This document shows, piece by piece, positions 17,966 to 56,652 of a DNA stretch of 64,000 bases (position 1 is its first letter; each line of letters starts with the position of its first letter). The DNA lies in contig OY829330.1 of NCBI GenBank assembly GCA_963691655.1, positions 18,098,182 through 18,162,181 of the forward strand, read 5' to 3'. The position numbers and the translations under genes were made by a program. The notes beneath the pieces were generated by a model. That model was not told where the DNA came from. It did no database searches and saw nothing but the letters and a program-made list of their open reading frames with translations. This DNA is from Toxonevra muliebris (taxonomy: Eukaryota > Arthropoda > Insecta > Diptera > Pallopteridae).

Positions 17966-18129
17966 TGAAATAAAACCTGTAATTATGGGTTACGATTTCA
18001 AATTTTAGTACCTTATATAAGATGATGAAAAGACTAAGAACTATCACTAAGATCACTGATGAGGAATTGTTCCGGATTCCGAAACAGCCGTCTGATTTGC
18101 CCGTCAACTAAGCCTGTTATACATTACTT
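17966..18129 (+). mobile_element. Small ribozyme-bearing retroelement, copy 1
   Basis: A 164-bp insert is bracketed by the direct repeat AACGCTTTCGCT (17954-17965 and 18130-18141). It shares about 85 bp with copies 2 and 3 upstream of a hammerhead fold, and shares its 3' end (CCTGTTATACATTAC-like) with copy 2. It lacks coding capacity. A likely 12-bp duplication plus a self-cleaving motif suggests retrotransposition of a small, possibly circular RNA, as for retrozymes. It is shorter than copy 2 by an internal deletion after the ribozyme. Confidence 0.65.
18050..18098 (+). ncRNA. Hammerhead ribozyme, copy 1
   Basis: Stem I is AGATCA (18050-18055) with TGATTT (18093-18098). The core CTGATGA is at 18056-18062 and GAAA at 18081-18084. 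Stem II is GGAATT/GGATTCC-type across 18063-18080. Stem III is two base pairs (AC/GT) with an AGCC loop. The predicted cleavage site follows GTC at 18092. All invariant core bases are present. In this copy the stem III palindrome is broken by one change (ACAGCCGT). Confidence 0.75.
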
Positions 18130-18415
18130 AACGCTTTCGCTCTTTATTCAAACAAAAACCACAGACTCGTGACTGATATTGTTCATTCGTTTTTTTTTCA
18201 CAAATTGTTCTTATCAGCATGGTGACTACTGCAAGTTGTTCATTTGCAGCATCCTTGTTTCTTCTCGATAGCATTTCCTGAATAGTGACGATGTCAACAT
18301 TTTTTAGGACGTTCGTCATTTTATCGCAGTGGGTTCCATCCAACGCACAACCAATGTGTGCCCGCTTAAAACTCATATGCCAAAGCGCTGCAGCTATTGA
18401 ATTCTGTTAACCCCT
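18130..18415. other. Unassigned stretch
   Basis: An 82-codon minus frame (18376-18128) containing HIGCALDGTHCDKMTNVL is open, but I cannot relate it to any family. It may be part of the insertion that separates the LINE endonuclease halves. Confidence 0.3.
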
Positions 18416-18850
18416 GGTGACTTTAATGTGAACCTGCTCTCTGATGATCAGCATACTGCGAGGTTATGTGATCTTATTGCTTCTGCTGGTCTTTCGATTG
18501 TAAACTCTGTTGTCCCCACACGATTTGCTAACAATGCTAGACCTAGTCTACTAGACTACTTTATTACCCCCAATGCTACAAGAGTTTTGAAATTTGATCA
18601 AATATTCTTTGTCTCGGACCACGATCTTATCTTTTGTAGTTCAAATGTGAATCTTAATCGTAAAAATACGTCAAATACCTACTCGTTCCGTGATTATAAT
18701 GCTATTAATGTTAGTGCCCTGTTTTCTGACCTAGCCTGTTTCCGTTGGAATGATTGTTGGTTTATGAGTTCTGTAGATGAAAAACTTGATTTTTTTGTAA
18801 AAAATTTGAATAAAGTATTTGATGCTCACGTGCCGTGTTGTCCATGTTAA
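18416..18850 (+). pseudogene. LINE endonuclease C-terminus
   Basis: The frame reads PGDFNVNLLSDDQHTARL, later LLDYFI, and VSDHDLIF. GDFN and SDH are the catalytic Asp/Asn and Asp-His motifs of the LINE AP-like endonuclease. The linker follows, ending VFDAHVPCCPC before a stop at 18848. The RT linker continues in another frame from about 18840, so a frameshift lies here. Together with 14275-14404 it represents one endonuclease with its middle missing. Confidence 0.75.
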
Positions 18851-20745
18851 ATATGATTCATGTTCGTGGTATGATTCTTATGTTGAAATGGCTATTAAGA
18901 AACGTAATAGACTGCATTTTATTTGGAGAAAAAAACCGATGACTGTGAACTGGAGCTTATACAATATTGCCCGAAATAGAGCTTCCCTAGTTGTTAGATT
19001 AGCTAAGCAAAAATTTTATTCCATGAAGTTGAGTACTTCACTTTCTACGAAAGTTTTATGGCGTAACATAAAGAATCTAGGTGGGTACCGTAAATGTGAT
19101 TCCCTCAGTCAATTACCTCCTGATGCCCTAAATGATTTTTTTATTTCCGTTTGTAAACCTACTCTTAATAGTTCTTACGTTAACAATTTGTCTGCTACTA
19201 TCCCCTCAAATAAATTCTTTCAGTTCTGTGCTGTCAATGAAAATGATGTGGTTAGGTGTGTCATGAAGATAAAATCAAATGCGGTGGGCGATGACGGAGT
19301 GCAAATTAAGTTTGTAAAGATCGTGTTACCATATATTTTAGCTCCTCTGACACAAGTATGTGGAAAGTAGCTTCAATTTTCCCAATAGCCAAAAAACCGT
19401 CTGCGCATACAGTAAATGATTTTCGTCCTATTAGTATTCTGTCATCGTTATCAAAAATATTTGAAACTATCATGTCTGAACAAGTCTCAAATTACTTGTT
19501 TGAAAACAATCTGCTTTCACCATTTTAATCTGGGTTCCGAGAAGGTCATAGTTGTTCCACTGCCATGTTAAAAATTATGGAAGATATTCGTGTACCTTAT
19601 GACCAGGGTGACCTCACGCTTCTATGTCTTTTAGACTTTTCTAAAGCGTTCGATTCTGTGGATCATTTTTTGTTATGTGAAAAGCTAAAGTCTTACTTTG
19701 GTTTTGATACAAGCTCATTAAGGCTAATGAAAAGTTATTTAAAAGGTAGATCCCAACGAGTAAAGGTAGGCGGTGCCTACTCTCAATATAAATCGGTGAC
19801 TTCAGGTGTTCCGCAAGGATCAATTCTTGGTCCTTTGTTGTTCAGTATATTTATTAATGACATATTTGTTGTGTGTAAGAATGTAAATGTTCATGCGTAT
19901 GCTGATGATATACAACTTTATCTGTCTAATCGTATTGGTCTTACTAACGATCTCAGTGCTACAATAAACGAGGACTTATTAACCATTAGTAAATGGGCTT
20001 CTGACAACGCTTTAAGCCTTAATGCTGCTAAATCATTTGTTTTACCCATTTCTAAGGACAAAATTTCATTGACAGATATTCCCCCCTTATATATAGGAAC
20101 GGTGCCGTTGCAATTCGTTGACAAAATAACTAGCTTAGGTTTTCGTATTAATTCTAACTTGTGTTGTGTCGATCATGTCAATAGTATTCTTATATATATA
20201 TATAGAAGTAAAGTGTTTTTAACTCTGCGTAATTTGAGAGTGTCTGCTGCTTTTACTCCTGTAGAAACAAAACGGAAACTGGCAATCCAGTTAATATTAC
20301 CAATAATATCGTTTTCTGAACTTGTTTACAGCAAACTAGATTCTCATTCGCTGCACAAGCTTGAAGTAGTATTCAATAATGTTACTCGCTACGTTTACGG
20401 CCTACGTAAATTTGATCACATAACTTCATGGAGAAATAGTATTCTTGGTTGCAGTCTTTCTGATTACTTGAGAGTCAGAAACTGTGTATTTTTATTCAGG
20501 CTAATTACTCGTAAGATCCCTCTGTATTTATATGAGAAATTAATTTTCCCTCAATCTGCAAGATTCCAGAATTTGATTGTACCTAAATTCAGTCAGATAC
20601 CTTAATTCATCCAGAATGTTTTTCATTAACACCATTAAGCTATGGAACACTATCCCTTTACATATTAAACGAAATCTAAGTGTACGTAATGCTAAGTTTT
20701 TACTGTTTAAATATTTTTCGGCCAAAAGTTTGTAAGCTGCTCAAG
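18840..20745 (+). pseudogene. Jockey-like LINE reverse transcriptase
   Basis: Several frames together give an almost complete RT: the linker region (18870-19370), VNDFRPISILSSLSKIFE (19410-19470), LLDFSKAFDSVDH (19631), TSGVPQGSILGPLLF (19801) and the catalytic HAYADDIQLY (19895). A C-terminal domain ends near 20745 (TIKLWNTIPLHIKRN). Frame breaks occur near 19365, at the stop at 19527 and near 20603. The longest uninterrupted part is 19565-20605. In the family this enzyme primes cDNA at nicked target DNA. The YADD motif is intact but the gene is dead. Confidence 0.9.
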
Positions 20746-21194
20746 ATTTTAATTTTAATATTTCAATGTTAATTTTAATACTATCTCTTCATAAGATTTT
20801 ATAATCACGCTAGTTATTTATGTAGCAATTGTCTTATATCGTTTTTAATACAGTCTGTCAAATGTGCTCTGCATTACATTGGTTCAATATTTACTTTAAT
20901 TATCTATTATCGTGTCTTAACTAGTTTAACTTCTTATTTTTACTGCGATTCTTCTTTTTAAGCTGCCTATTTATTTTTATCTTACTTTTAAGTACTGGAA
21001 AAGATTTCATATCTTAGTGTACTACTATATTTTCTTATTGAATAAATTGAAAACATATTTTTAATAGAGCTTGAAAGATAACTTTTGTGTTAAATTAATG
21101 ATTACCTACAACTTCTACAATAAATCAAAAAATGTTTTACACCTCTGTAAAAAGAACTTTAACGTGAAATGATCATATATATATACATATAACT

Positions 21195-21990
21195 ATCGGT
21201 AAAGTCTACACCATGTTGCGCAGCTTATGGGTAACACAACATTTTACTCCGCAAAAAATTCGAATTCTATTATTCCAACTGTGATTATTCTTGCAATCCA
21301 AACTAAACTCTCTAAACAACAACATATCAAGATATATATCTGGCAAAAGACGTTACGATCACGTCTCGTTATACGCTAAAAATATCTTCTCCATTACATT
21401 CAATAACTTGCGAGCTTTTCGGACCATACTACAGCTACACAAAGTAATATTCACAAAAGAACCAAACTATCTGTTTGACCGTCTGTGCTTTACGCTATCG
21501 AAGCGTTCGAATCAAATAATCCAATTCAGATATCAGTCTCTTACATCTGAGCGGCATTTTTACATATATTCAATTCTTCTTTGGAATAAACTACCGTCAT
21601 ATATACTTTCAATCAGCAACGCACAGCGCTTCAAAACTTCCCTTTTAAAATACCTTGCAAGCCAACAATAAACTAAATTTCATTGTTCATTGAAAGCCTA
21701 ATAATTTTAATAATTAAATTTCTTTCGTTAATCTTTTTATAACTTTGAAATTTGTTAAACTTTTTTTTTTTGCTTTTTTCTTTCTTCTTCGTGTTTTTTA
21801 CCACTTTTCATTTCCTTTAATTTTAAGTTTTATATACATTTTATAATAATTCAAATAATAACCCCAACTGACTAATGTTAATTATAATTAAAAATTTTTT
21901 TTAATGACTAATGTTAATTATACTAAGGATACTGTTTCCTGTAACATTAGGATAATAATAATAGAAATAAATAATAAATTATAAAATTTA
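21195..21990 (+). pseudogene. C-terminal fragment of a second Jockey-like LINE
   Basis: From 21195 the frame gives KVYTMLRSLWVTQHFTPQ, a stop, then LQSKLNSLNNNISRYISGKR. It continues through LLWNKLPSYILSISNAQRFK to a stop at 21669. This is the post-RT C-terminal region, homologous in layout to the preceding LINE (compare RYVYGLRKFDH and KLWNTIP) but clearly a different family. An AT-rich 3' UTR follows to about 21990. It is a strongly 5'-truncated insertion, as is usual for LINEs. Confidence 0.75.
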
Positions 21991-21999
21991 ATAAGAGAA

Positions 22000-22330
22000 A
22001 AGAGGAGACCTCCTCCCAATAAGCCAGTTCATTTTTCGTAACTTCAGTGCTAATTCGGTTTGTTTAATTTTAACGTGTTCTTTTCAGCATAGTTTAGCAT
22101 CAAGCGTCTTTCCCAAATTCTTTGCCGTATTGGCGTAGGGAACTTGAGATCCTGATAAATTTTTTTTTGTTCGTGAAGTCTACATGGATCGATTTCGTTT
22201 CATTGAGCTTTATACGCCACAAAATGTTACAGCTCATTAAAAAAGACTGGAAGACCACATTAACCCTGTGGCACGAAGACTCTTTAACACTTTAGAGCTC
22301 ACCCGAAGGTTAAAGCGCAACAAACCTCAT
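22000..22330. other. Non-coding stretch
   Basis: No recognised gene or repeat between two LINE fragments. Confidence 0.4.
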
Positions 22331-22331
22331 G

Positions 22332-23390
22332 ATTTAGGCTAGGTTAAGTGGCTGTCGGTACGGACACACTTAGGCCAAATACGGCTCGTTGTGCTACCAC
22401 GTGGGTGTTTCAATTCACCCCTTTAGAACCTGAAAATTAGTTGAAACAATTAGACTTTGTCACGAAATTAAGTAAGTCCCCTAGGTCAGTTGACCCTAAG
22501 TCGGATAAGTCATCTAGAAAATATTGACCTAGGGCATTTTTCCTACAGTTAATCAGGGCTGGGCAGAAGCACAAGTAGTAAGAAATGGATTCCTCCTCTT
22601 CTTCATCTTTACAGCTTCTACAATTGTCGTTTGAGGGCGCGGCCAATCTCGAGGCGAGTACGCCTATAAGACAGTGGCCAGTTATTACTGCTACAGCTTT
22701 GTATATTTGTCTTCTACCGAGAGATAGCAGCTTCCTAGAGCGTTTGGGGTTATACTCTGGCCATACCTACTTGGTGGTTCTGCACGTGTTTTCGGGTACT
22801 TTTTAAATTGTATAAACGGCTTTTTTGTGCCTAATCTAGCTAGTTCGTCAGCTTTGTTATTTCCAAGTATATCACTATAGCCTGGTACTCATACAAGGTG
22901 TGCGTTGAGTTCATCGGCTACTTCGTTGAGTAAACGCCGACTATCAAAAGCCACCTTGGAGGTCAATGATATACTGGCTAGGGATTTGATAGCAGGTTGG
23001 CTATCGCTGAGAATAAAAATATCATGGGCTGATACTTTATTGCATTGCAGCCAGCTCGCCGCTACCTGAAAAGCCATGAACTCAGCTTGGAAGATGCTGC
23101 AATGGTCAGGCAGACGAAAGGATAAGCTTAACCCTACTTGCTCAAAGAAAACCCCTCCCCCTACCCTTCCATCCAGTTTGGATCCATCGGTGTAAAGGTA
23201 CACCGCATCCTTCTGCTGGTCTCGACTCTTGATCATTACCTCTCTCGAAGGAATTGGTGAATTCCTAAAGGACTTTGGAATGTCCTACAAATGGGCCACA
23301 TTTCCATCTGGTCACTCAATTACGGCACGTACCGAGATACATGTTGATCCCCTTAAGTGACCGATGACCTCATGATTTAACATCAAAATA
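22332..23390 (-). pseudogene. I-clade-type LINE 3' part: RNase H and C-terminal finger
   Basis: On the minus strand the RNase H domain (23236-22889) starts VYLYTDGSKLDGRVGGGVFF. It has IFQAEFMAFQVAA (catalytic Glu) and IFILSDSQPAIKSL (catalytic Asp). Next come a GNNKADELARLG-like segment and the finger CRSCKDEEEEESISYYLC (22646-22437). The 3' UTR ends near 22332 in the complement of AACCTAGCCTAAA, resembling the (TAACC)-like tail of this class. Frames change between the pieces. The RT upstream of RNase H is missing. Confidence 0.85.
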
Positions 23391-23394
23391 AATT

Positions 23395-23667
23395 TGGTAG
23401 CAACTGATATCTTGAAGTTGTGACTTAAGATTTTTCTTTTTTATATATTTATGTATTTGAATGTAAATGCTTAAATATTTCATTTATTAAACAAATATTA
23501 CTTGATAGTTTATACTAGGTGTAATGTAATTGAATTTATGAAATTTTAAAACGATTAAATAATAAAAAAAGCCCAATGTGTGAGATTTAACAAAATAACA
23601 ATTGATTGTGGTAAGTTTGCACATTTTTTCTCATTGGTGCTTTTTTTTACATAATTACACATGTACA
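23395..23667. other. Non-coding AT-rich stretch
   Basis: Nothing recognised. Confidence 0.4.
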
Positions 23668-23671
23668 TTAA

Positions 23672-24287
23672 GGCGCCTCACGAAAAAAAGATGGTGCGTC
23701 AGATGGATCGTTAAAAAAAAAAAAAAATCTAAAAATCGGCTTTTGTACTAAACAATTTATCACTAAGTTACTTTTGATTGCATCAAAACATTTAAAATTT
23801 GTAGTTATGGCGCTTTATGCGATTTCCATGAAAATTAAGATAAATCTGTAATTTTATTCATAAAAACTTTGGTTTCCATTGGATTCGAGAAATTTATAGC
23901 TCCTTACACTAGCAGATCCAAAGGGGCGGTTTGGGTTTATCCCCCGTTAGTGAAAATCTCATTAGGAATCAACCAACATTTTAAAGGGATAATAAATTAG
24001 GAAATCTCTGGATCCACTAGTGACTCCTTGGATATGTGTTTTTTTTTTAATTTTGACCTAACTACATCGATCTACTAAGTCACACCACTTAAAAGACAAC
24101 GTTTAAAACCTAATTATTTTTGAGTTTCTATTCTGAATCTTTATTTGGCCAAAAGTAACAAAAAGCGAGCGACAGCTTATCGCTAGAGTCAAAATATTTT
24201 TGGCAATCTTCATAAAACCAATAAAGTATAATTTTTAGGAGGGTGAGCAAAAACCTTTTCTTTTTTTTGTATGGAAATTGAGGCGCC
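23672..24287. mobile_element. TTAA-flanked MITE with GGCGCCTCA ends
   Basis: The ends GGCGCCTCA and TGAGGCGCC are each next to TTAA (23668-23671 and 24288-24291). The perfect inverted repeat extends outward over the TTAA into TGTACA, giving 19 bp. So either TTAA is the target duplication (piggyBac-type) or the true end is TGTACATTAA. The inside is AT-rich and non-coding. Confidence 0.7.
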
Positions 24288-24291
24288 TTAA

Positions 24292-24960
24292 TGTACAGAA
24301 CTATATTATATCTCTAAACTAAAAAATGCAATGCTTTAATAAGCTGCATTACACTTCAATGACTTTGGCCCGATGAAAATAAATGTCAAGCCAAGCCAAT
24401 TTACTTTCTATAAAAACGCCCTCGCCTTCGCTTCACAATCTATTGTATATAAATCTTTTTGTATACATATGTGTGTGTGTGTGTATGTGTGTTTCTGTCG
24501 TGTCTCCTTTTTGCTACGCCGCACAAAGGCGCATTAATTGTTCTTGTGCGTAAGCATGGAAATAAATTTTGCAACCCTGTTCATTTATGAACTAAAAAAA
24601 CAAAAAATAAGAAAACTAATTCAATCCAAACAGGCAAAGCCAAAAAATCCCTTTTTGTGAGATTTCGTCACTGTGCGTTTACTGCTTGTGTTAAAAAATG
24701 TATTAAGAGCAACTGGGAAACAAAAAAAAAAAAAAAAAACAAGGAATGAAAGAATAAAAATAAATATAGGACAAATGTTTCCTTAATTTTCATTAATACG
24801 AAATCATTGAATTGTAATAATGAAAATCCCAAAAAACAATCAAAGGGATATATGCGCATGTAGACTAGTGTTAGACGAGATTGTTAGTAAATAGTGTGTG
24901 GTGCGATACATTAGGAGAAATGGTAAAGAATAAGGTATGTATGTGTACATTAGGACACCT
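24292..24960. other. Unique-looking non-coding DNA
   Basis: Contains a (TG)n microsatellite near 24470-24490 and a poly-A run near 24722. No gene is seen. Confidence 0.5.
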
Positions 24961-24964
24961 CATG

Positions 24965-26060: not shown

Positions 26061-26154
26061 CCAATTATTGTTGCTTGACATTATATTTGAAAACTTGCAC
26101 GTTATTACAATTACAGGCAATGAAGTTTTTCCCTTACCATCTCCATTAATCAAT

Positions 26155-26280
26155 GCAAATGGCAATGCTGAGTTCAAATCCATTGGAATGAATTAGTACT
26201 AAAATAAATTCATTACATTTATAGATTAATTACAGATTCATTGCAAGGGATTTGAACTGAGTAGTACCATTTCCGTTGCA
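26155..26280. repeat. Short inverted repeat element
   Basis: The left arm (CTGAGTTCAAATCCATTG region, 26152-26195) and the right arm (26240-26280) are inverted copies of about 40 bp. Probably a MITE whose outer ends are eroded. Confidence 0.6.
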
Positions 26281-26311
26281 GTAATGAAATGTTCAATTTT
26301 AATTACAATAG

Positions 26312-26456: not shown

Positions 26457-26459
26457 ATA

Positions 26460-28468: not shown

Positions 28469-29704
28469 TTAGCCGTTGAATCTTATTCTCCACTCTCCGT
28501 TGATGCATACTGGCCCGAAAATAATGCGCAGTACTTTTCGCTCAAAAACCCCCAGCAGCTCCTTACTCGCCGTTGTCAAAGTCCACGATTCCGCGCCATA
28601 TGTTATTACTGGGATAATAAGGGTCTTATAGATCTGTATTTTTGTCTTTCGGGCCGTTTCTCTCGATCTTATTACTTTGCTCAAGCCAAATAAGCAGCGA
28701 TTGGCGAGCCCAATTCGACGCCTCATTTCAATAGTGGTGTTGTTGTCGGATTTAACACATGATCCCAAATACACGAAGTCATTTACTACTTCGAAATTGT
28801 ACTGCTCAATGGTGACGTTTTGGCCTAGCCGATGTTGTGTGCTGTTATTTCGACTGCAGCACATGTATTTGGTCTTGCCCTCATTTATCTTGAGCCCCAT
28901 TTTTTTAGCTCCGCGCTCTAGCCCACAAAATACCTCCCTAATGCGTTGCTGGTCACATGCGAGAAGCTGATGTGGTCTCTGAAATATTATTCCAGTGGTG
29001 TATACACCAGCGTCACGGGCTATTTTTTCAAGGCTTATATTAAACAGGTCACACGATAGCGCATCGCCCTGACGTAAACCCTGAATGGCATCGAAAGGTT
29101 CGGATATATCGTCAAAAATTCTGACGGCGCAGCGTGAGTTTGCTAGGGTCATTCTGCAAAGCTTGATGAGCTTGGTTGGAAGGGCAAGCGACTCCATAGC
29201 AGCAAATAGCTCATCTCTCCTGACGCTATCATACGCTTGTTTAAAGTCGATAAACAGATGGTGGGTATCGACCTGGTGCTCACGGGCTTTCTCTAAGATT
29301 AGACGGAGTGCAAATATTTGGTCTGTAGTTGATTTACCTGGCCTGAAACCACACTGGTATAGCCCAATGATGTTGTTCATAAAGGGTTTCAGGCGTTCAC
29401 ATAAGATGGAGGAAAGGATCTTGTACGCAACATTTAGAATGCTGATACCTTCTGGCATCATTCCGGTCGAAAGCATTTTGCATATCCAGCACGCATGATC
29501 TCTCTCATGCTGTCTCTTCTTGCTACGCAGCAGTCTATACGCCTCTCTTCTTTTAGCGTTACACGCATCAATACTACTGCGGGTCGCTCGCTGTAGCATA
29601 TTTCTTATTATTATTTTTCTTATTTTTAACCTCAATGGCTTTCGAATATTCCTCATCGAACCATCGATTACGCTGCCTCGGCCGCCGGGGGCCAAGGACC
29701 TCAT
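28469..29704 (-). pseudogene. RTE LINE reverse transcriptase, catalytic motif deleted
   Basis: The RT includes ILSSILCERLKPFMNNI, YQCGFRPGKSTTDQIFALR, HLFIDFKQAYDSVRRDEL, GLRQGDALSCDLF, and LKINEGKTKYM before VNDFVYLGS. The block that should carry the catalytic FADD/YADD is missing: the frame passes from IIFQRPHQLLA directly to CDQQRIREVF. A small in-frame deletion has therefore removed the active-site Asp pair. The C-terminal Y-GAESWTLT motif is present. The enzyme cannot be active. A break lies between this and the linker frame near 29590. Confidence 0.9.
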
Positions 29705-29889
29705 TGGCGGATGTTAAAAGCGCATCGACGCAGCTCTGCCAATGGTCGTCGATGGCTTGCGTGTTGGAATGCTCCGATTTCTTGGAAACCATACTGGCGT
29801 ACTCAGTAGCTACATCGGGTTGCCTTAGCGCTTCAATATTAAATTTAGTGTTGCCGTTTGGCGTTCGTTTCGATTTTGCGTCTGAAATC

Positions 29890-30573
29890 CTAAGTTGAAT
29901 TTTGGATTTCACGAGAAAATGGTCTGAGCCAATACAAGGACCTCGATAGCTCCGCACATCCAACACACTCGAAAAGTGTCGGGCATCTACTAACAGCATC
30001 CGGTGGTCTGGCGACCACCAAGTACCTACTAACAACTAAATTTCTTGCCGCTGCCAGGTTCACAAGCCTCACGCCATTATTTGTAGTTTCCAAATGTATG
30101 CTGTGCTTACCAATTACTCCTTGGTAGATGCTCTCATTGCCAATTTTCTCATTAAAATCCCCCAAAATAATTTTCATGTCATGTTTGGGACAACGCCCAA
30201 ACGCTATGTCTAGCTGATCGTAGAACTGGTCATTTATAGACTCCACTGCGTCTTCGGTAGGCGCATATGCGCAGATAATGCTGATGTAGAAACAAGCTTT
30301 GAGGCGAATATAGCAAATCCTATCGCTGATCGGTTTCCAGCCGATGTTGTATTTGTGCTTTACAGCAAAACCCACTCCGTAGGAGCCCCTTTTTTCTCGG
30401 CCGCTGTAGTATACGTCGTACATTTTTTTTCCATCCTGCAGGATACCATTTCCTGCCCATCTAATATCTTGCAATGCAACGATGTCTACTTGATGTTCCG
30501 TAAGCACAATTTTCAACTCCTGTAGTGCACCTGGCCTTAGAAGAGTTTGCACGTTCCAAGTACAGATGTTCAA
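29890..30573 (-). pseudogene. RTE LINE AP-like endonuclease
   Basis: The frame starts MNICTWNVQTLLRPGALQEL and has VDIVALQDIRWAGNG, where family members have QEIRW at the catalytic Glu. Later blocks are RGSYGVGFAV, YAPTEDAVE and IILGDFNEKIG (catalytic Asp and Asn). The final SDH-type block (SYRGPCIGSDHFLVKSK) lies in the overlapping frame 30035-29574, so one frameshift near 30030 splits the domain. In the family this enzyme nicks target DNA to prime reverse transcription. The Glu-to-Asp change at QDIRW is notable. Confidence 0.9.
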
Positions 30574-36685: not shown

Positions 36686-37959
36686 CATGGTGACAATTGT
36701 AAAGTGACGCAAGTTTAATACTCTGCAGTAAGCTTTGCCATTTACCGTTACTTTAATTTAAAAAGCAAATTCATTCATCATTGGCTTTGCTTTTAATTTC
36801 ATTTGAATTTTTGTTATTACATTTTGAAATTTCCATAAAAATGGACAAGGAAAATATTCGTCGTGAAATTATGAAATTTCATTTGGCAAATTATAGTAGC
36901 CGTCAAATTGCAAAGGCTTTAAATTTGTCAAGTCGTACGGTAGACCGAGCTATTATTCGATATAATAAAACTGGGGGTTTTGGAGATAGAGACCGGGGAA
37001 AATTTTCAACAGTTGCCACTACTGGTTTAACAGAAAAAATTCGTAAACGAATCAAGCGAAATCCAAGGCGCTCAATGAGAAAAACCGCTAAGGAAGTGGG
37101 AGTAAACCGTGAAACAGTGCGAATCATTGCAAAATCAAAGCTTAATCTTAAGCCGTACAAGTTCCGAAAAGCTCAAGATCTGACACAAAAAAAGAAATAT
37201 TTGCGACTGCAAAGGTGCAAGGCGCTGCTACGCTCCTCCGTGTTAAAAAATGTTGAAAATATCTTGTTTACAGATGAAAAATTTTTCACGGTTAAACAAC
37301 ATTTCAATGCGCAAAATGACCGAATGTGGCTAACATCATCATCGAAACAAAATAGGACTGTTGGCCGAGTTCAAAAGCCAGCTTCCGTTATGGTATGGGC
37401 TGGAGTTTCCGCTAATGCCAGAACCCCTCTAATATTCGTTGAAGAGGGTGTTAAAATTGACCAAGTTGTTTATCGGAGCATTTTAAATGAACATGTTCTT
37501 CCCTGGGCCCTTGGTACATTTGGAAATGAAAACTGGACTTTCCAGCAAGATTCTGCACCTTCCCACATGGCAAAATTAACGCAAACATGGATAAAAGACA
37601 ATTTTTCTGGATTCATAACATCTCAAGAATGGCCACCATACTCCCCAGACTTGAATCCAATGGAGTATTTTAGAGAGTAAGGCTTGTGCATCTCAACACC
37701 ACAGTCTGGAGTCGCTGACAAATTCATTAGAGAAAGTCTGGACTGAAATTGATCAGGAAGTCCTGCGGCGAACAGTCCTACGATTTCCGGATCGATTGAA
37801 GGCATGTGTGCAGGCTAAAGGAGGTTATATTGAATGAGGTGGGGTTCAAATGAATGCTTATATATTTAGCAATTTTAACACTTAATTGTACTTAATGGAA
37901 GTACGTCCTTTTGAAAATAACTGCTGAAATGTGTGCGTCACTTTACGATTGTCACCCTG
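36686..37959 (+). mobile_element. Mariner-like element (Tc1/mariner), nearly complete
   Basis: The 26-bp inverted ends begin CATGGTGACAATTGTAAAGT (36686) and, in complement, CAGGGTGACAATCGTAAAGT (ending 37959), with 24 of 26 identical. TA dinucleotides flank both sides (36684-36685, 37960-37961). The single ORF between encodes a transposase with one break. Little divergence between ends and an almost open ORF suggest a comparatively recent arrival. It sits inside the hAT-like element and is therefore younger. Confidence 0.95.
36841..37837 (+). pseudogene. Mariner transposase, DD37E-type, one frameshift
   Basis: The probable start is the ATG at 36841 (MDKENIRREIMKFH). The open frame extends 20 codons upstream, but that leader is hydrophobic and not family-like. 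Domains in order: a paired-like helix-turn-helix (SSRQIAKALNLSSRTVDRAI), a second HTH (RRSMRKTAKEVGVNRETVR), then the catalytic blocks NILFTDEKFF, WTFQQDSAPSHMAK and EWPPYSPDLNPMEYF. From the second Asp to the Glu of NPME there are 37 intervening residues. Relatives with this layout (maT-like) usually have Asp there. Just after MEYF a small deletion shifts frame near 37665; the C-terminus (SKACASQHHSLESL to a stop at 37835) is otherwise intact. Confidence 0.95.
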
Positions 37960-39929: not shown

Positions 39930-41050
39930 ATGAGCTGTCAACTGTTGGTTTTTGTATTAAAAAAAAAAATCTACGAACATTAAAAACATAAAGAATATGA
40001 ATATATAAACGATGACGTATTTCTTTCCTGTCATCCTCAATACTATGTATAATGTTGATCAACGACCAAGGCGCCACACCGGTATTAATATCTCATATCT
40101 ATATCTCGATGTCTGAGCTCTAAAACTGAGACAACTTTCAATCAATCGCTCGTTCTTTTGTTCATTGATCGGTAGTGTTTTTTTTGCTCAAGTGTGCATG
40201 TCTGCATCACTTAGTTTATTTCTTGTGCATATCTTACGGCAATATTTAATGCGCATCTACTTTGCTTAGAGTAATTTTTTGGAAACAGGTTGGAAGCAAG
40301 TTGAATTCGCCTTATACATACAGAGCATGAGTGAACGAAATCATTTGCTGTTCATGTTATGAAAATACAACACAAACTGTGATCTATTTATGTGATTTTC
40401 TTTTTAGTATATAGTAATAACACTAGAAATTCCTCACAGAATCAAAATCAACTTTTCTAAACCAAAACTTCGTCGTGCTAATTCCAAAGATCACGTCTAT
40501 AAATTTTATTTGACATTGGATCGTTTTTAAACCTTTACTAAAGCTAAAGAGGGAACTCTAATTAAAATGTTGATGTATCATGAATTGCATACCTAAGGAA
40601 ACCAGAGGATTTGCACCTTAGAAGGCTTGAACTTTCATGCGTCACCGGTGGCCCTGTGGCTTTCAATTGGATTTTTTACGAACTTTTTCCATACATTTTT
40701 ATTAAATAATTTTTTAAAGATAGACAAAGTAACTTAGTTTTGATTTTCTACTTAACCCTTTCTTGACCTTAAGGAAACTAGAATCTATAAAACGAAACCG
40801 AGTCCAAATTCGTATTCTCTGACTCCCATTTAATTGTAAAAAAGTTCTTTAAACATTTCTATTGAAGATCTTAGGGTAACCGGTGACCCATAGCAAAACT
40901 TGCATTTCAAAAAAAGTTGAGTAAATAGTTTTCCCATACCATCTTAAAAATTTGGTGTATTTGGACAAATTTTGTAAAAATTGTGAACGATTAAAAAATT
41001 AATTCTACACTATGTTATGATTCAAATATACAACTTTTTAAATATACAAG
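39930..41050. other. Unique-looking non-coding DNA
   Basis: No repeat or gene recognised. Confidence 0.45.
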
Positions 41051-41066
41051 ACTTTCAAATAACGAA

Positions 41067-41363
41067 CTGTTATGCAGACTAGCTACAATGGGAAAAAAAA
41101 CAACGACTTAAGTATATAGAACGGTAGTGGTAGTTTCTTTCAATATCTCTATTCAGTGAAGATATTTGGAATCAAATCCGTAATTCTGGGTTATGATTTC
41201 AAATATTAGTAGCTTATGTAGGATATTGAAAGATTTAGAACTATCACTAAGATCACTGATGAGGAATTGTGGCGGATTCCGAAACGGCCGTCTGATTTGC
41301 CCGTCTCTATATACATTGTTGTTGTGATGACTACATTTGTTCATTAACCTGTTTATATATAAC
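41067..41363 (+). mobile_element. Small ribozyme-bearing retroelement, copy 2
   Basis: A 297-bp insert is bracketed by the direct repeat TTCAAATAACGAA (41054-41066 and 41364-41376). It is the longest copy and has the best-preserved ribozyme. The 5' third (to about 41150) is not shared with the other two. The region 41180-41320 is shared with both, and the segment after the ribozyme (CTCTATATACA) is shared with copy 3. Non-coding. Confidence 0.7.
41250..41298 (+). ncRNA. Hammerhead ribozyme, copy 2 (best preserved)
   Basis: Stem I is AGATCA (41250-41255) with TGATTT (41293-41298), six pairs with one G-U. The core is CTGATGA (41256-41262). Stem II is GGAATT with GATTCC (41263-41280) around a GTGGCG loop. 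GAAA is at 41281-41284. Stem III is AC/GT closing GGCC, and the cleavage trinucleotide GTC precedes 41293. The stem III sequence ACGGCCGT is a perfect palindrome. Known minimal hammerheads with very short stem III act as dimers through such a palindrome. All core positions fit the consensus. Confidence 0.85.
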
Positions 41364-41379
41364 TTCAAATAACGAAATA

Positions 41380-42550
41380 ACGAAATTGACATGAACTTAA
41401 GTCATGACTTTGAAAATTAACCACTAGATTTAATTTTCGTAGTCTACTAAAAAACTATCAACAACTCTTTTAGTTTTTCAAAAAACTTTATAAATTTATT
41501 TTTTAAATTATAGATTTTACTCTTAGTCCAAACTTCAATGCAAAAAAATCTTTCACAGCCAGAATAAACTCTGCATCGCTTCCATAGATGTGCATTAGAA
41601 TGCATTCTGAAGCAGTTTTGTCAGCCGTTGGGTACATACATGTACACATACACACACATGAGAAAAACTAATTCGCGCATGCAGTGGCGATCATGATCGC
41701 TCTTTTGTTGTCACTGACATTGTATATCACTATCGATTGATTCGTCCAATCGATCGATGGATCGTTCGTTTCAATCATTTCAGGCAACAACAAAAAAAAC
41801 TAGACGCACTCGTTGTAGACAATTTACGGTGACACTTTCGATTGTTGTTTTTATTTTTATACTTATTATAATTATATGAAGTAGATATCATATTTCTCTT
41901 CTTTGTTGCTTTACTCATAAGAAATCAAACTCAAAACAAAGATCGATCGATCATCTAATTAACATTTATGCTAAGGGATAATATACTGTTAAAGATTATA
42001 TAAATACAACAACAACTAAACACAGTCAAAATATTATTATGATTTAATTTACACAAGCATTGTTTATACATATGGCGGGGGGGATTTCATCATGGATGTT
42101 TCGAGGTACTCGACATTAATTTCGGTAGATAAATCAGTCAGTTTCAGCCCATTTTCGGACATCAAAGTTCTCAAAAGAAAAGACCTAAGCTTTCACATGA
42201 TGACAACATGTTGTGATAACAAACTTTACGCATTGTTGTTTACTTCATTATAAAAGTTTTCGTTTGCACGTCTACATCGGCTAATGTTGATATTATTTTA
42301 AATTTCAATTAGGAAAGAATAAACTATAAACTAAAATAAAACAACACAATAAATAAAAACAATGTTCCACTATTCCATATATATGTAAGTATATTCCATA
42401 ACCATTTTTGATATAGAAATTATGTGTTGCATACTTTTGGGCTTAAAGTAAAATATATAATAAAACACACCTTATTAACTCCACTCACTCACTCCACTGC
42501 AAAATTTTCCTTCAGCCCCGAGTAAAGATGTTATCACATCATCCAAAACC
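41380..42550. other. Unique-looking non-coding DNA
   Basis: Contains several ATCGATCG-type words near 41740-41760 and 41940, and the inverted copy of the 5272-5340 repeat at 42196-42270. No gene. Confidence 0.45.
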
Positions 42551-46649: not shown

Positions 46650-47165
46650 TAAACATTTTAGCTCACGGTATGGGCAAAATTTCAAATGTGTAAAATGTAA
46701 GAATAACTGTAACGTAAGATGTAAGATAACTGTAACGTCCAGTTCCCCTCTCGCTAACACTACTGCGCGGCATGACTGTGCTACTCTAAACAACAAAGAG
46801 AAGAGAGAAGAGAAGAAGAGAGGGAGAAATTAAAATACGAGCGGAGTTTGTTTGTTTATGATATGTTTATGTTTCGATCAATTTACTCACACATATGTGT
46901 ACATACGAAAACAAAATGTGTGTGTACATTTTTTCGTGGCAGAATTATTTGTTTTTTTTCATATTTTAATATTTTATTTTTTTATCTATGTAAATAGCAA
47001 AAATGTTGAACAGAAAAAATCAAACTTATTTATTATAAAGTCACTTATTTACTTTAATAAAATACATTGTTTCTTATTTTTATTAAATGCAGTTAAGGCA
47101 AATCTTTTTACGGTGCATTTAAAAAGTAGTGGGGTGGCTGGTCACCCCTGTTCCAAGGTTCAATG
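46650..47165. other. Non-coding stretch
   Basis: GA-rich run near 46790-46830 and AT-rich sequence. No gene. Confidence 0.4.
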
Positions 47166-47170
47166 CTTAT

Positions 47171-47246
47171 CGTCGCCTGAGAATTGATTTGGCGTATGTG
47201 TGTACAAATTCACATACCTATACGCCAAATCAATTCTCAGGCGACG
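47171..47246. repeat. 76-bp palindromic MITE, copy 2
   Basis: The arms CGTCGCCTGAGAATTGATTT and the complement are perfect over more than 25 bp, and TTAT lies on both sides. Related to 16306-16380. Confidence 0.9.
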
Positions 47247-47365
47247 TTATATATAATTTTCGCATCTAACAAAATTTCAAATCGACTGGAAGAAAAACTT
47301 AAAGCGGGAAAAAAAAGATGCAAATGCATTGAGTAAAAAAAAATAATGCAACTACAACATATCAG

Positions 47366-49700: not shown

Positions 49701-49739
49701 TAAAATCCGCCCCGCCAAACCCAAATCCTAGAACCGCCA

Positions 49740-51030
49740 CTGCACATACACAGTAGAGTCCAGAACGAAAAACAGAACGCGGAGTAGGATGCGTCTACCT
49801 GGTTATTGTGCTATGGTGCAAATACCTAAATATGAGAGATTGCTGTTCATTTATTCTTGCATGGTTCTTGTTGTTTAACCGTTCTTTTGTTCGTTCGCTT
49901 CCTCCTCTCTATGCGTTACATCAATTTTAATGCCACTTCGTTTCTGTGCTTTTACATGTGTAAAACGTGCCTATAAAAGTTTCAATCCAAAAAAAAAAAA
50001 GATTTTTATTTCTCTTCGGCTTCCTGATACACAATTTAAATATTTTTAAACAAAATTTTCCTGTTCTTTTTAATCTTGTTTGCATTTTCAAAGATTTCTA
50101 GCACCTGCAAATCCGTTCGTTTTCTTTGCATATTTCTTTTTATTTAAATCCTGCCAAAAACGCAACGGGGTGCTCATCAAAATTGCCACTTAATTAAACC
50201 ACTCATAAAAATAGACGTTCATGCGGCGCCGTATTGCGCCGGTATCAGTATCTGTTCTTCCAGTACAAGCAATCGTACTGAATTGTTGGCAACATCTCTT
50301 ATATTATTAAATTTTCGTTTCATATTGGATACATATGGGTATTCCCATTATTATGGACAACACGTCCGTATGACTTGAGTAGATTTTGCATTGAAATAAA
50401 TCAAAGTATTGGATATATCGTTTAAGTGTAAATGTAGTTAGTATTAAATAAAATTTGTTTGAGTAGTGCATATTATTTTTTTAAGAAAGGACGTATCCAT
50501 CTTTGAAAACTGATTAAAAAACTAACTCTCCCAAAATACTTTCAAATTTGGCGAGTATTAGTATTCGCGCATAATATCCATAACGATGGAAATGCCCATA
50601 TGAATTACAATTTTCAAAAGTTTAATTTGTTATTTGCTTGTATACCCTACATTAAAAAAGTAAGAATATACACACATCGTGGGTCATTGTACCAAATTTC
50701 AGTACTATATTGTGTATGATTCCAGAGATAAACTCAAATAAGCATATGATTTGCATGAGAGGTACCACGCTTACTTTTCCAAGCCCACCCTAATTTTTTC
50801 CACAGAATGCCGTAAACAAATGTTATTTCCGTACCAAATCTTAGTACCGTTCTACAAACATTTCGTGAGATGAAAATTCAGGTTTGTATTGGAGTTACCA
50901 CTACCACTTTCTCTCGTTATGAATATTGACGTGCACTTCAGGCCTCATAACAAACACATTGTATAAGTTTGAGCTCAACCGGATGGTTAGTTTTTGAGGT
51001 TACCGTTCTCAAACGAACAGCTCATTTTTA
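49740..51030. other. Non-coding stretch
   Basis: No recognised gene or repeat. The segment 50640-51030 has an intergenic character with short AT tracts. Confidence 0.4.
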
Positions 51031-51683
51031 TATACATTAGAATTTCGATAATTCGTAATCGCAAGGGACCAGCAATTATTTACGTATTATAGGGGCTTTA
51101 GATATAATGAGATTTCGATTTAACGAGGTTAAAATAAGAAAAATAAAAACGAATTGACGCGGTTTTTTTCAATTATTTAATAGAAAGAAAAAAACAGAAA
51201 CAATTATTCATTTAGTTGAAATATGTATGTATGTTACATATACATTAAACGTGTTTTATGACGTAGAGGATTTTTCAAAACGTGTTCTAGATGGTTCGAT
51301 TGGGCTATTTTTTTCCTATCACCTAACAATAGTTAGTATTAAATTTGAAGACAATTGCATAAGGGAAAATCGGCGCGGAAATCGATTGAAATTTAAAAAT
51401 GTAGTTATAAGGACGAAAAATCGTTTTTATTTATTTTAATTAAACTTATTTTAGTTGTAAATTTTTGGATCAGTTTATGATTTAATCGATTTCTGCATTA
51501 GATTATCTTTCCAACGAGCTTTAAAAAATAAAAATTGGTTTCAAAATAAATAGGTTACAACATTTTCTATTCAAATTAGACTAGATTTTTTATATGTGGG
51601 TTACTGTTTTCTATAAGATTCTACAATCTGGAGCAAAAGTTGTTTCTCTTCTTCCTTATTTGTAAGGATTTTGTTAAAGTCTT

Positions 51684-52440
51684 TCATGAAATTAACTTCC
51701 CTTTCTGCAGTATCATTTGTAACAAATAAATCACGGCACAAGTGACATCCACTGAAGGAAGAAATTTCAAAAATTCTGAAGATATGTGGAAACTGCTAAA
51801 GAAATTATAAGTCTTCTTCGACGCAAAATCGCGCAAATCGTAATGCGACAACGTTTCTGGTTTGACAAATTTACTATCAATTAGTTTTATATTTGGTTTC
51901 GGTTTAATTGAGTTTAGGCATTCAGTCATTTTTTTTTACTAACTGTTTCAGCTATATTTGCTCCACTGGACGAAACAAGTTTGGGAGCACCAAGGAATTT
52001 CCAACCCCCATTATAATTAACGAGAACTGCAATTCTCTCTTTGGTGTCGCCAATAAGGTCTGCACCAATAAGCCCTCCCTATGAACTTCATTGCTTGCGT
52101 AAAGAAGAGCATAGACAGAAGAAAAACGATAAAAATAGATGATAGTAGAGATGACATGATCGACTAAATTATGTTGTCAATAAAAAGTGGAACGGTTAAT
52201 AACTCGCTCGTCAGCGCGATGTCCCAACGCTTCCGCAGCTGCTATTAAAATATGAATAACTTTTCCATCGGAAACTTTTATACTACCGAATGCAGAAAGT
52301 AAACGAGGTGTAATAATAATGTTTGCTCCCCCTTTTAACAGTGATCGAAAGATATTCATCATCACTTGCAGACAATCCGTCATTTTCTCTTGCCGATTCG
52401 TCACTGTCAGTAAACCCTGTTTCATCATCACCTGGTTCGT
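51684..52440 (-). pseudogene. Relic of an unnamed transposase-like gene
   Basis: Three collinear minus-strand pieces fit one protein type. HILIAAAEALGHRADERVINRST lies at 52365-52190. LIGADLIGDTKERIAVLV then GWKFLGAPKLVSSSGANIAE lies at about 52075-51950. FVKPETLSHYDLRDFASKK to the SEFLKFLP end lies at 51875-51735. I remember this combination (EALGH-x5-INRS, then a D-x-x-G-DxKERIAVLV block and a LGxPKL block) from repetitive ORFs in insects and cnidarians, but cannot name the superfamily. A TTAGAATTTCGATAATTCGT pogo-like end at 51038 may belong to it. Frameshifts throughout. Confidence 0.35.
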
Positions 52441-52865
52441 TAATAATCATTTACCCGAATTCGAATTGGTAAAGTTTTATTTTCTTTTTTAATGTTTTCC
52501 TTTGAATCAATACTAAACGTTCTATGTTGAAAATATGTATGTGTGTAATTTAGCTATTTTTTATATCTAGAATAAGTTGAATTTTAAGAACTCCTCTAAT
52601 ATACATGTGTATATATATTGGACAACATTAAAAACTAAGTTTTAAAAAAGCTTACAATTTTTGGTTGTTTCAGGCTCTTCTCGTCCATATTCTCTTGTCC
52701 ACCATGAAAAATACAAAAAATTACACAAAAAAAAAAGAACAGAAACGTAGCTGTAGCTGCCTACTATGACTGATTTTTACCGAACCGTAGCTCGGTAGAA
52801 TTTTGCTTTGCATTACGTATTATGTATAAGAAGTTATCAACAATCAATTACGATTTATAAGAGAC

Positions 52866-52950
52866 TAAACCAACCTTGTATGGAATTTTTGCAAATAAAA
52901 GTGATTTTTTCAAGAAACCAACAGTTTGTTGCGAATTTTTCGTTTTAAAT
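52866..52950 (+). repeat. Fragment related to the pogo-like end at 9266-9361
   Basis: TGTATGGAATTTTTGC followed by CAGTTTGTTGCGAATTTTTCG matches 9266-9345. The outermost CAGTnGAA end is missing. Confidence 0.55.
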
Positions 52951-52969
52951 CATACAAGTATTTTCGTCC

Positions 52970-53130
52970 TAGTAAAATTCACAGTTACAAATTTTCAAGA
53001 CAATCTGTATGGGATTAGGAATCTATATGTGGTTGTGAATCTGTTAAAAGAAATTATTTTATACTTTTTAGTCCATTTTAAAAACGTGGTATATTAAAAA
53101 TATTTTTTATTTAAATTATTATTTTTTACT
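52970..53130 (+). repeat. Dispersed repeat, partner of 17086-17260
   Basis: Shares TTTTCAAGACAATCTGTATG and TTTTAAAAACGTGGTATATT. Followed by a T-rich tract. Confidence 0.75.
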
Positions 53131-53484
53131 TTTTAGTCTTGTGTGTGTGAAATTTTGCAATCGATTTTAAGTAAAGACCAGAGCTGTAAAAAAATGCATT
53201 CAATTTAATTGCAATACATTGAAGTCATGGTTAAAAACCGACAATTTGCACTAAATTGGAGTGACTTGAAGTCAATTGAGGTTTTGAAGTCACTTGAACT
53301 TAATTGGAATTTGAAATTGTTGACACATTGAATCAAAACCAATTGTCTAAGCAATGTCACAATTAATTATTGGACTCGTGCAAGATCATTTTCCCCAGAT
53401 TGCGAATAGCCCTATTCATTAAATTATCAATCAATTATCAATCAAATTATATCTTCTCACATAAATGGGTAACTCAATAAATAC

Positions 53485-54080
53485 TGTTTTTACATTGCAC
53501 CTCGTTGTGATTCTACATTTTGAAACAGAAATGAAATAAAGGCATTTGCCAAATACATAGTAAGAAGAAGATTTGTCGTTATGGATGTAAAAATGTACAA
53601 GAAGAATAATTTATTTATATATTAAAACATAAAATATGAAAAGTTCTAATATTTTAGCTAAATATACTTATTTACATACATATATGAAAGTTCTAATATT
53701 TTAGCTAAATATACTTATTTACATACATATATTTAGGTACAATGTTGAAAATAGTGAAAAAGTAGAAAAAGATTTAAAAGTACTTATATAAAATTCATAA
53801 AATCAAAACAAAACGTTTACATATTTGTATATAAAGAATATATAAATACTGTAAATGTTGAAAGTTATTTGCTAAAAGAAATGTTAAATATTTATTTCAT
53901 CAAACACGTCAAACTCATCCATTCATACATTTTTGTCTGCTGGATGTGTTGACAATCGTCGGTGTCACACCATCGGTATTGCACCTCGCTCCTGTTTCTA
54001 CGATTTTTTGCTTCGATTCCAGCAAGAGCAAATTGCGATCTCTTTACAATCTATACTCTTTGTAAGCGGAACAAAACGAA
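53485..54080 (+). repeat. Dispersed repeat, partner of 16616-16900
   Basis: The two shared blocks flank an extra segment at 53600-53940, which includes a tandem duplication at 53640-53735. It is therefore an insertion or an ancestral segment lost in the other copy. Confidence 0.75.
53640..53735. repeat. 48-bp tandem duplication
   Basis: AAAGTTCTAATATTTTAGCT through ACATACATATAT occurs twice with almost no difference, so it is recent. Confidence 0.9.
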
Positions 54081-54179
54081 AAGAAAAGTTCGTTATTGTT
54101 TGTTTTTGTTCTCTCTCTCATTTGTCTTTGAATTTGTGTATGTATACACATATCCATATATTCTACTCCCGCTAAAGCA

Positions 54180-55890
54180 ATGATTATAACAACGTTGAAT
54201 TCAATGCTTTGATCTATCAAAAAAATGGAAAAACTTCCGATGCTAATATTTTAAATATAATTATATTTATCTATATTTTAGATACTTCATATTGCATTGT
54301 CTTCCAGTTCTGAACTACATTTTAAGTTTCAAGTCTCTAGCTCATCGGGAAGTTAGTTTAAAATCGATTGCAAAATTTGTACCGAACAGACTGACAGACA
54401 CCATTGAAAGCGAATTGATATAAACGTGGTAAAAAAGGTCGTAATAAAAATCTCCGGTAACGCTTACTTACAGAATATCTATTAGATATAAAATTTGCTA
54501 AAGCTTCTATCTTTCGGTAACAAAATAAACACTACCGCGACAGAATCGACCTGTAATTATATGAGTACAGCCCATTTCAAATTTTTTTTTAGCAAATTTA
54601 AAGACAGCAAAAATTACCCTTCTTGGTCACATTCAATGATTTGCAAAATCTGTAGACTATTTTTACCAACTTTACAAAAAAGTATCATCCATTTTACGAA
54701 TAATCTCGATCAAAAATGTGCTGAGATATAGCCAATTAAATGGAGTTTAATAATTTGGACATTCGTTTAACTCACTGTATGTATGCATAAGTCGGTTTTG
54801 ACCGGCCGAAATATTTTTTTGCTTAATTTTTTTTAATACATTTTTTTTGAATGCTGTTTGTTGTTCACTTCACCATATGTAAGCGTAAGAATTGTCATAT
54901 GTCAGTTTAAAGTCAATTTAAACTCTATGTGAAGTGACACCTTGATATCCACTTAAAACTACATTTTAGACATTTCATCATATGAGGTGATGGTGTAGCA
55001 GCATCAACATATTGTTGGTTAGTAAATATTTCGTTATAAAAATACAATGAAATATTTTTAGCTCAACATAAAATGAAACTTGATTAAGATAACCATCATA
55101 GCCTTGTGCAAATTTTAGTTTAGCGTATAATCTCATTCCGTATAGTACTTTCACACAATATAAAAGTAGCACGGGTATAATGGGCCTTCAGGGTAGCACT
55201 TACACATACATAAATTCCTTGACCATTTCTAAGGTATGCATATGGTATATAGTAGTCAACAATGATACGCTCTGACTGCTGAGACTTTTTTTAATTTGTT
55301 TTACGTTTAATTTGTTTTACGATGAATTCTTGGCGACGTTACGGAATATCGCAATGACGACGCCACATGCTAGTCGGACTTCATTTTTTCCAAGAATTCG
55401 CTCTATTTTTACCTACAAATCTTTTTTCTCGATCGAACATCTTTTTGTTTGAACTTTAGGTAACAATTTCAATTTTTCAAAAGACTCATAAGTTTTCGAC
55501 GAACATGGTGAAAAATTTCACCAGGAGATTTCTAACATGGAACAACGGCACAAAGGAAAGAGTATCATCAATACGTTAACTGAATATTGCTGGACTCATA
55601 TTCGACAGACTGCTGATGAGCAATATTCAGACCAAGCTAAAACAAAAAAAAATCAAATAAAATAAAATGACAAAAAATACTTTTGAAAAAAATATTAGAA
55701 TCTATGATTTAGAAAAATATTCATTTCAATTAATTTATTCTTCAAATACAAAATTAAAGAATAAATAAAATGAGATTTCTTTTTAAATATTTTTAGAGAC
55801 TATGAAACTGAAATCTAATTGTTCGTTCATATTTTATAGTTTGACTTTTACTACCTAGCTAACTCAACTGTTTAAGGTTTGTTTATTAGG
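54180..55890. other. Non-coding stretch
   Basis: No recognised gene. A TTTAATTTGTTTTACG duplication occurs near 55293-55320. Confidence 0.4.
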
Positions 55891-55901
55891 CTAAATGAAA
55901 C

Positions 55902-56125
55902 ATCCTTTTTATCGAAGTGACAAAGTGGCTAAAGTGCAACAGTGTATAAAGAGCAGGCAAATCATACGGCCGTTTTGGAACCCGCCAAGATTCCTCATCA
56001 GTGATCTTTATGATGGTTCTTACTTGCATTTCAACATTCTATATAAATGTCTAATATTTAAAAACGTTACCCAGAATCACAAGGTTTTTGTGTTTCAAGT
56101 ATTTTCAAGTATTGAACAGAAATGA
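55902..56125 (-). mobile_element. Small ribozyme-bearing retroelement, copy 3
   Basis: A 224-bp insert lies between the direct repeats TAAATGAAAC (55892-55901 and 56126-56135). Read on the minus strand it aligns with copy 2 from GATTCTGGGT through the ribozyme and beyond it. The ribozyme has one core mutation. Non-coding in both strands apart from a chance frame. Confidence 0.65.
55959..56007 (-). ncRNA. Hammerhead ribozyme, copy 3 (core mutated)
   Basis: Minus strand: AGATCA (56007-56002), CTGATGA (56001-55995), stem II GGAATC with GGTTCC around TTGGCG (55994-55977), then AAAA where GAAA is required, stem III ACGGCCGT, GTA cleavage triplet, TGATTT. The G-to-A change in GAAA should abolish cleavage. 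GTA still fits the N-U-H rule. Stem II shows a paired change relative to copy 2: positions differ yet remain paired (U-G, C-G). Confidence 0.75.
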
Positions 56126-56169
56126 TAAATGAAACTAATAGCATTTTCTTTTCTTAACTAAATGTTGAA

Positions 56170-56470
56170 TTTTTTTGTGTCGTGCCGTGGCAACAATTTT
56201 TTAATGTTGCCCTCAAACATGCCAAAATGTTGCATTTTTAATGCAAAAAAGAACATAAAAATGCTACCCTGTCAGAATCAACTAATTTGAGGGCAACATT
56301 CTTACCCCGTCATTTATTTGAGTTTAAAAAGTGTAACATTTTTCCCCGCTCAGAAGGCAACATTTTTTAAAAATAGAACACAATACTCTCTGAAAAGGCT
56401 GCCTTTTTTTCAGAAAAGAACACGAAATTTGACAGCCCTCGCACGGTGCAGAAAAAATGCAACATTTTAT
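56170..56470. repeat. Cluster of GGCAACATTTTT words
   Basis: GGCAACATT or AATGTTGCC occurs at about 56206, 56292 and 56352, with related GCAACATTTT near 56459, in both orientations over 300 bp. Probably a MITE with subterminal repeats. I could not fix its ends. Confidence 0.45.
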
Positions 56471-56603
56471 CGAGAAAAGAAAACGCTATAACACACTAAC
56501 ACAACTGTTCTTCGTATTAATTTTGTTGAAATTCTCATTGCAACTAGATATTTAACAGTTAGTGAATAATTTGTCAGCTTGTAGAAATGAGAAAGAGAGA
56601 GCA

Positions 56604-56652
56604 CTTAGACACTTATATAGAATATTGAAATGCTAGTAAGAACCATCACAAA
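56604..56652 (+). repeat. Broken fourth copy of the ribozyme element
   Basis: TTAGACACTTATATAGAATA through GTAAGAACCATCACA matches the segment directly upstream of the hammerhead in copy 3. It stops just before the ribozyme core. Confidence 0.7.

Follow-up and report, generated by a model that had tools for sequence, protein, structure and literature searches.

We analyzed a window of 64,000 nucleotides from the fly Toxonevra muliebris (assembly GCA_963691655.1, contig OY829330.1, positions 18,098,182 to 18,162,181, forward strand), which holds several copies of a retrozyme, a repeat carrying a hammerhead ribozyme motif, and followed this family in the genome. The family is a retrozyme of the metazoan non-long-terminal-repeat (non-LTR) type, a known kind of element; what is new here is how its copies end, that is, insertion footprints that bear the marks of Penelope elements. 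The 3' ends lie at two fixed internal sites while the 5' ends are scattered, target-site duplications flank many insertions, head-to-head pairs combine one end of each kind, the units of an array are nearly identical, and a resident Penelope element has a matching anatomy. We consider it probable (about 0.74) that the retrozyme RNA, probably circular, is reverse transcribed in trans by a Penelope enzyme that primes on both target strands; cleavage, circles, and the identity of the helper are what we infer from these footprints.

Insertion footprints of the retrozyme family

A 24-nt hammerhead pattern, allowed up to three mismatches, matched 5497 times in the 491-Mb genome of 96 contigs (2723 forward, 2774 reverse), a count of motifs and not of insertions; the reversed pattern matched 60 times genome-wide (31 + 29). 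For closer examination we used 75 loci (L009 to L083), all with zero mismatches and all located within the initial 21.5 Mb of contig C1; L001 to L008 were dropped, being the same places as L019 to L026. The repeat unit is 483 to 487 bp long in the 23 full units found, and copies are single, truncated, or tandem, with up to five hammerheads per array in the sample. The short elements of the window are truncated pieces of this ∼484-bp unit, which is tandem elsewhere. An earlier note on this DNA, which had proposed a search for consensus length and tandem copies, had read the elements as retrozyme-like RNAs moved by other retroelements, and the dispersed copies, type I hammerhead, near-identical tandem units, 5' truncation, and duplications bear that reading out.

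To describe the ends, we used circular unit coordinates in which 0 is the C of CTGATGA and the predicted cleavage follows position 36. The mapping covered 92 copies, each 60 nt or longer and three of them from the window; both arms of pairs were counted and shorter copies left out. Their 3' ends concentrate at site A (positions 104 to 123; 25 copies) and site B (189 to 209; 44 copies), which together account for 69/92; among the 23 ends elsewhere are those of window copies 1 and 3, for which the BLAST match stopped before the end defined by the duplication. Site A lies 69 to 86 nt past the predicted cleavage, with a mode of 81, and site B 154 to 173 nt past it. For the 3' ends, the best two windows (20 + 21 nt) hold 70 copies; for the 5' starts they hold just 17, where uniform simulation gave a mean of 18.6 and a maximum of 26, so the 5' starts are scattered, near even placement. 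None of the 92 copies has the cleavage site as its 3' end, and 24 are longer than one unit.

Two smaller observations concern the 5' starts. L060 and L064 begin exactly at the first base past the predicted cleavage, where even placement predicts ∼0.2 copies, and these starts resemble run-off at the 5' end of a cut RNA; L060 exceeds one unit. Nine of the 92 copies start at positions 281 to 292, close to where TCAAATAACGAA, a repeat within the unit, occurs for the second time; its first occurrence is at site A, and template jumping between the repeats is possibly the cause.

Target-site duplications were sought in the flanks of 80 insertions, after those whose flank windows contain N had been dropped. 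In 27/80 insertions the two flanks have a word of 8 or more bases in common, compared with 3.9% when flanks were swapped, and in 18/80 a word of 10 or more, compared with 0.5%. At 12 loci, two copies lie head to head with their 3' ends outward. Both ends could be classified in eight pairs, and all eight combine an arm ending at A with an arm ending at B, an outcome with a probability of 0.002 if arms were independent at the observed A:B ratio; the other 4/12 have an end outside A and B. Shared words of 12 to 16 bp span 7/12 pairs (L011, L014, L021, L030, L048, L053, and L075), six of them among the classified eight, and these seven therefore look like one insertion each, with both strands priming. 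In L014, the arms of 911 and 1842 nt carry an identical set of eight variants, four of which occur in no other sampled array.

Animal retrozymes were defined, and their presence in insects described, by Cervera and de la Pena in 2020 (PMC7229834), and the present family resembles their metazoan non-LTR retrozymes in its type I hammerhead, its thousands of dispersed short tandem repeats, and duplications of >4 bp, which the 27/80 insertions with a word of at least 8 display. Those elements lack LTRs, a primer binding site, a polypurine tract, and a coding frame; in the present family, no frame of at least 150 amino acids overlaps the window copies. They differ in unit length (∼170 to 400 bp, versus 483 to 487 bp here), and the available portions of that account report neither two fixed start sites nor paired inverted copies. 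In a literature search based on listings with the opening lines of abstracts, no entry described retrozymes with two start sites or with insertions paired in inverted orientation, which is no proof of absence.

Penelope elements of the same genome

A search of the genome for GIY-YIG domains gave two matches, one in a Penelope element and one in a host gene that resembles SLX1. A piece of the Penelope reverse transcriptase matched 148 times genome-wide, each piece being counted singly, and some frames are 827, 842, 859, and 866 amino acids long. Pfam RVT_1 was found in 3/3 full Penelope frames, which also contain YVDD and C-terminal YIGTT/YVGTT motifs. The family with the 866-amino-acid frame, PLE2 (L086 and L087), has two copies that are 99.97% alike across 2936 bp and a minimal hammerhead (CTGAAGA...GAAAC GTT). 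Its anatomy is an inverted arm and a full direct copy, in L087 also with a 13-bp duplication.

PLE2 ends lie 74 nt (L086) and 76 and 113 nt (L087) past the cleavage site, and ends read by eye lie at ∼77 (L093), ∼110 (L092 and L094), and ∼113 to 116 nt (L091); L090 was dropped because the contig ends there. These positions indicate two start sites ∼36 nt apart, with the arms of L087 using one each. The first start, 74 to 77 nt past cleavage, resembles retrozyme site A, the insertion anatomy is the same, and the word AAGCCTGT stands 53 nt past cleavage in the retrozyme and 52 nt past it in PLE2. PLE2 differs from the retrozyme in encoding an enzyme, and the rest of its sequence is not significantly alike. 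A third, diverged Penelope family with an 859-amino-acid frame is represented at L089 and at G000:C3:56000546 and 56003784; several matches have the same score, and two of them are head to head.

Work on Penelope elements elsewhere describes similar behavior. The Anolis Penelope protein initiates at two positions within the RNA, cuts both strands and extends them, and prefers A/T-rich DNA; genomic copies end at those positions, and hammerhead mutants left insertion unaffected (PMC11167929, in the parts consulted here). Penelope inserts with inverted pseudo-LTRs (pLTRs), duplications of 8 to 10 bp, and a 31-bp tail on one inverted pLTR have also been described (PMC3846280, likewise in part). 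As far as these accounts go, the retrozyme shares with Penelope-like elements a hammerhead upstream of two internal starts, tandem and head-to-head copies, a tail on one arm, and duplications of similar size; two internal starts, inverted copies, and one arm per site are seen together in 8/8 classified pairs. It differs in having no coding frame of its own, a wider A-B spacing, and a fuller hammerhead with longer stems, and its ∼484-bp unit is too short for the telomerase-like reverse transcriptase and GIY-YIG frame that define a Penelope element.

A possible stem in the retrozyme, GACTA before site A with TAGTC at site B, similar to GACCAA/TTGGTC in PLE1 and PLE2, was considered by eye and was dropped since it is not kept in all of the old copies printed.

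Template and enzyme

Under the reading that we prefer, the type I hammerhead would cut multimeric transcripts into ∼484-nt monomers, which would then be circularized. A Penelope-like reverse transcriptase-endonuclease encoded in the same genome would bind the stretch 3' of the hammerhead, nick the target DNA on both strands, and start cDNA synthesis inside the RNA at A or B. Copying from a fraction of a turn up to ∼4.7 turns round the circle would yield single, truncated, or tandem copies, and priming by both target strands would yield head-to-head pairs.

Several results weigh against this scheme. Apart from the window copies, the sample comes from one stretch of one contig and was selected by an intact 24-nt motif. 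No shared flank word of 8 was found for 53/80 insertions, whether through age, imprecise BLAST ends, or lack of a duplication; 5/12 pairs share just 4 to 7 bases at their outer ends, and the center of L014 reads N. The 75 retrozyme loci and the window contained no Penelope sequence; retrozyme-Penelope hybrids were sought there and none was seen. At an E value of 0.1, Pfam GIY-YIG is absent from the three full Penelope frames, the domain being matched solely in L085 (28.3 bits). As to PLE2, its two starts are ∼36 nt apart, compared with ∼80 nt between A and B, and site B is unmatched. A word of the length of AAGCCTGT arose in 24/2000 shuffles at an offset of at most 1, in 46 at most 3, and in 171 at most 10; the word is exact in 25/81 copies, some of which end before it, and a G of it has been lost in one young subfamily of the retrozyme. 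Beyond the hammerhead, the local alignment score was reached by 32/500 shuffles for PLE2, 131/500 for PLE1, and 51/500 for PLE3, a weak kinship. Sequence kinship between the retrozyme and PLE2 through AAGCCTGT is, in our view, suggestive only.

A more specific proposal, which we favor by a narrow margin, is that the retrozyme is a Penelope-dependent parasite copying the start module of its helper: a hammerhead, a first start ∼75 to 80 nt on, and then a second start. One enzyme assembly would prime both strands on one circle at different sites, and each array would trace one circular molecule.

The form of the template is the point at which this scheme meets its strongest competitor, in which a linear multimeric transcript that escapes cleavage is copied and the hammerhead has no role in movement. 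Unprocessed RNA was the main in vitro template for the Anolis Penelope (PMC11167929, in part), and the 2/92 copies that start exactly at the cleavage site (L060 and L064) do so as run-off would. The tandem arrays speak to both schemes. Units diverge by a mean of 0.0001 within arrays (21 comparisons) and by 0.011 between arrays (232 comparisons), which one circle copied several times would explain simply, but near-identical units would also be expected if linear multimers came from a homogeneous donor array. All nine variants of L009 are common to L016, so much of the variation is at the level of subfamilies, and L010, L015, and L017 have no private variants. On the other hand, L014, L013, and L012 carry four, two, and one variants, respectively, that occur in every unit of their own array and in no other sampled array, and these fit one circle most simply. 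In addition, in the old copies (27 of 82), hammerhead positions not covered by the search motif retain an identity of 0.906, above most other stretches (0.80 to 0.89) and below site B (0.937). On balance, the linear template appears rather doubtful.

We regard it as unlikely, more so than a linear template, that the enzyme is of the long interspersed element (LINE) type, acting through ordinary target-primed reverse transcription and occasional twin priming. LINEs, too, show 5' truncation, duplications of such size, and inversions. The window itself holds a reverse transcriptase frame with an adjacent endonuclease-type frame, LINE-like, at 28469-30573 on the minus strand. At site B, many ends are located within or past an A-run, and short A-runs occur at some ends. 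However, the A-run at B is part of the unit, and the printed ends showed no longer tail of a consistent kind. LINEs and short interspersed elements end at the 3' end of their transcript, with a tail, whereas the retrozyme ends at two fixed internal sites, and the second site in pairs is fixed as well (8/8).

Another insect repeat with a hammerhead is pDo500, a satellite of cave crickets that is presumably ∼500 bp long, to judge from its name. In the available text of its report (PMC2837043), the terms retrotranspos-, target site, circular, and dispersed are absent, and it is compared here by description. That precedent and the near-identical tandem units are what a satellite spread and homogenized by recombination, without an RNA step, has in its favor; the dispersed copies, duplications above the swapped-flank control, and fixed 3' with scattered 5' ends make it highly improbable.

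Which enzyme moves animal retrozymes is an open question in the literature, to the extent that we have consulted it. PMC7229834 leaves the helper open and treats Penelope elements as a strong candidate, citing hammerheads in common, tandem copies, and co-occurrence; PMC11722881 names LINEs or Penelope elements. The two-start, one-per-strand footprints described here tie a retrozyme and a Penelope element together in one genome, and the question can now be tested with the resident Penelope protein and the RNA of the retrozyme. The variants of arrays, for their part, offer a genomic record of templates.

Copies and other features in the window

The features of the retrozyme copies are as follows.

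17966..18129, plus strand: retrozyme copy 1, 5' truncated, with limits set by an exact 12-bp duplication
17954..17965: copy 1 target-site duplication, left, AACGCTTTCGCT, exact 12 bp
18130..18141: copy 1 target-site duplication, right, AACGCTTTCGCT, exact 12 bp
18050..18098, plus strand: copy 1 hammerhead, core 18052-18075, by eye
41041..41460, plus strand: retrozyme copy 2, ∼420 bp, 3' end at site B (AAAAAACTATCA)
41030..41040: copy 2 likely target-site duplication, left, ACAACTTTTTA, imperfect
41461..41472: copy 2 likely target-site duplication, right, ACAACTCTTTTA, imperfect
41250..41298, plus strand: copy 2 hammerhead, core 41252-41275 intact; Rfam RF00163 match below the gathering score
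55902..56125, minus strand: retrozyme copy 3, old, ∼76% identical to the unit, with limits from an exact 10-bp duplication
55892..55901: copy 3 target-site duplication, one side, GTTTCATTTA on the minus strand, exact 10 bp
56126..56135: copy 3 target-site duplication, other side, GTTTCATTTA, exact 10 bp
55959..56007, minus strand: copy 3 hammerhead, core 55982-56005, AAAA instead of GAAA
56605..56655, plus strand: old unit fragment, unit positions 434 to 481, immediately 5' of the ribozyme, 78% across 51 nt

The three hammerhead-bearing copies are where the earlier note had placed them, and its fourth fragment (given there as 56604-56652) reappeared as the 51-nt match. Its claim that each copy has its own direct repeat held for copies 1 and 3. 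For copy 2, the quoted repeat, TCAAATAACGAA, was rejected because it lies inside the consensus unit twice (positions 110 and 286), and the limits proposed for that copy, 41067-41363, proved too narrow, as the unit alignment extends it to ∼41460. Copy 2 is 91% identical to the unit; the BLAST match spans 40993-41466, and its start was placed from the imperfect duplication. Copy 1 has 88.7% identity to the unit across 141 nt and, by eye, an internal deletion 3' of the ribozyme and a 3' end at the counterpart of site A.

The hammerhead pattern, which was derived from these copies, matches three times in the window versus 0.02 expected in shuffles. By eye, the copies have CTGATGA, a 6-bp stem II, GAAA (AAAA in copy 3), a GTC/GTA site, and a 6-bp stem I. 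Cleavage is predicted after 18092 in copy 1, which has one stem III mismatch (ACAGCCGT), and after 41292 in copy 2, whose stem III is the palindrome ACGGCCGT and would thus form only ∼2 bp plus a tetraloop in a single molecule. The core, stems I and II, and the cleavage triplet assign the motif to type I, with an Rfam score below gathering: the covariance search that had been suggested did return Hammerhead_1 on copy 2, scoring 23.8 bits where gathering requires 34 (151 bases searched). Two whole-window Rfam scans listed no hammerhead, and folding energy does not single it out (z of −0.4 to −1.0). With AAAA in place of GAAA, the ribozyme of copy 3 is probably inactive. A weak SNORD24 match at 41184-41263 (27 bits; gathering, 41) overlaps the start of the copy 2 hammerhead and is probably due to chance.

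Elsewhere in the window, hairpin-like stretches at 26155-26274, 47165-47253, and 58465-58565 gave subthreshold matches to microRNA models and are perhaps small hairpin transposons. A 299-amino-acid frame at 36781-37680 is mariner-like: it gives helix-turn-helix matches and, just below the cutoff, one to DDE. A tRNA at 8480-8551 on the minus strand scored above gathering, with a weaker match at 8236-8307 on the same strand.

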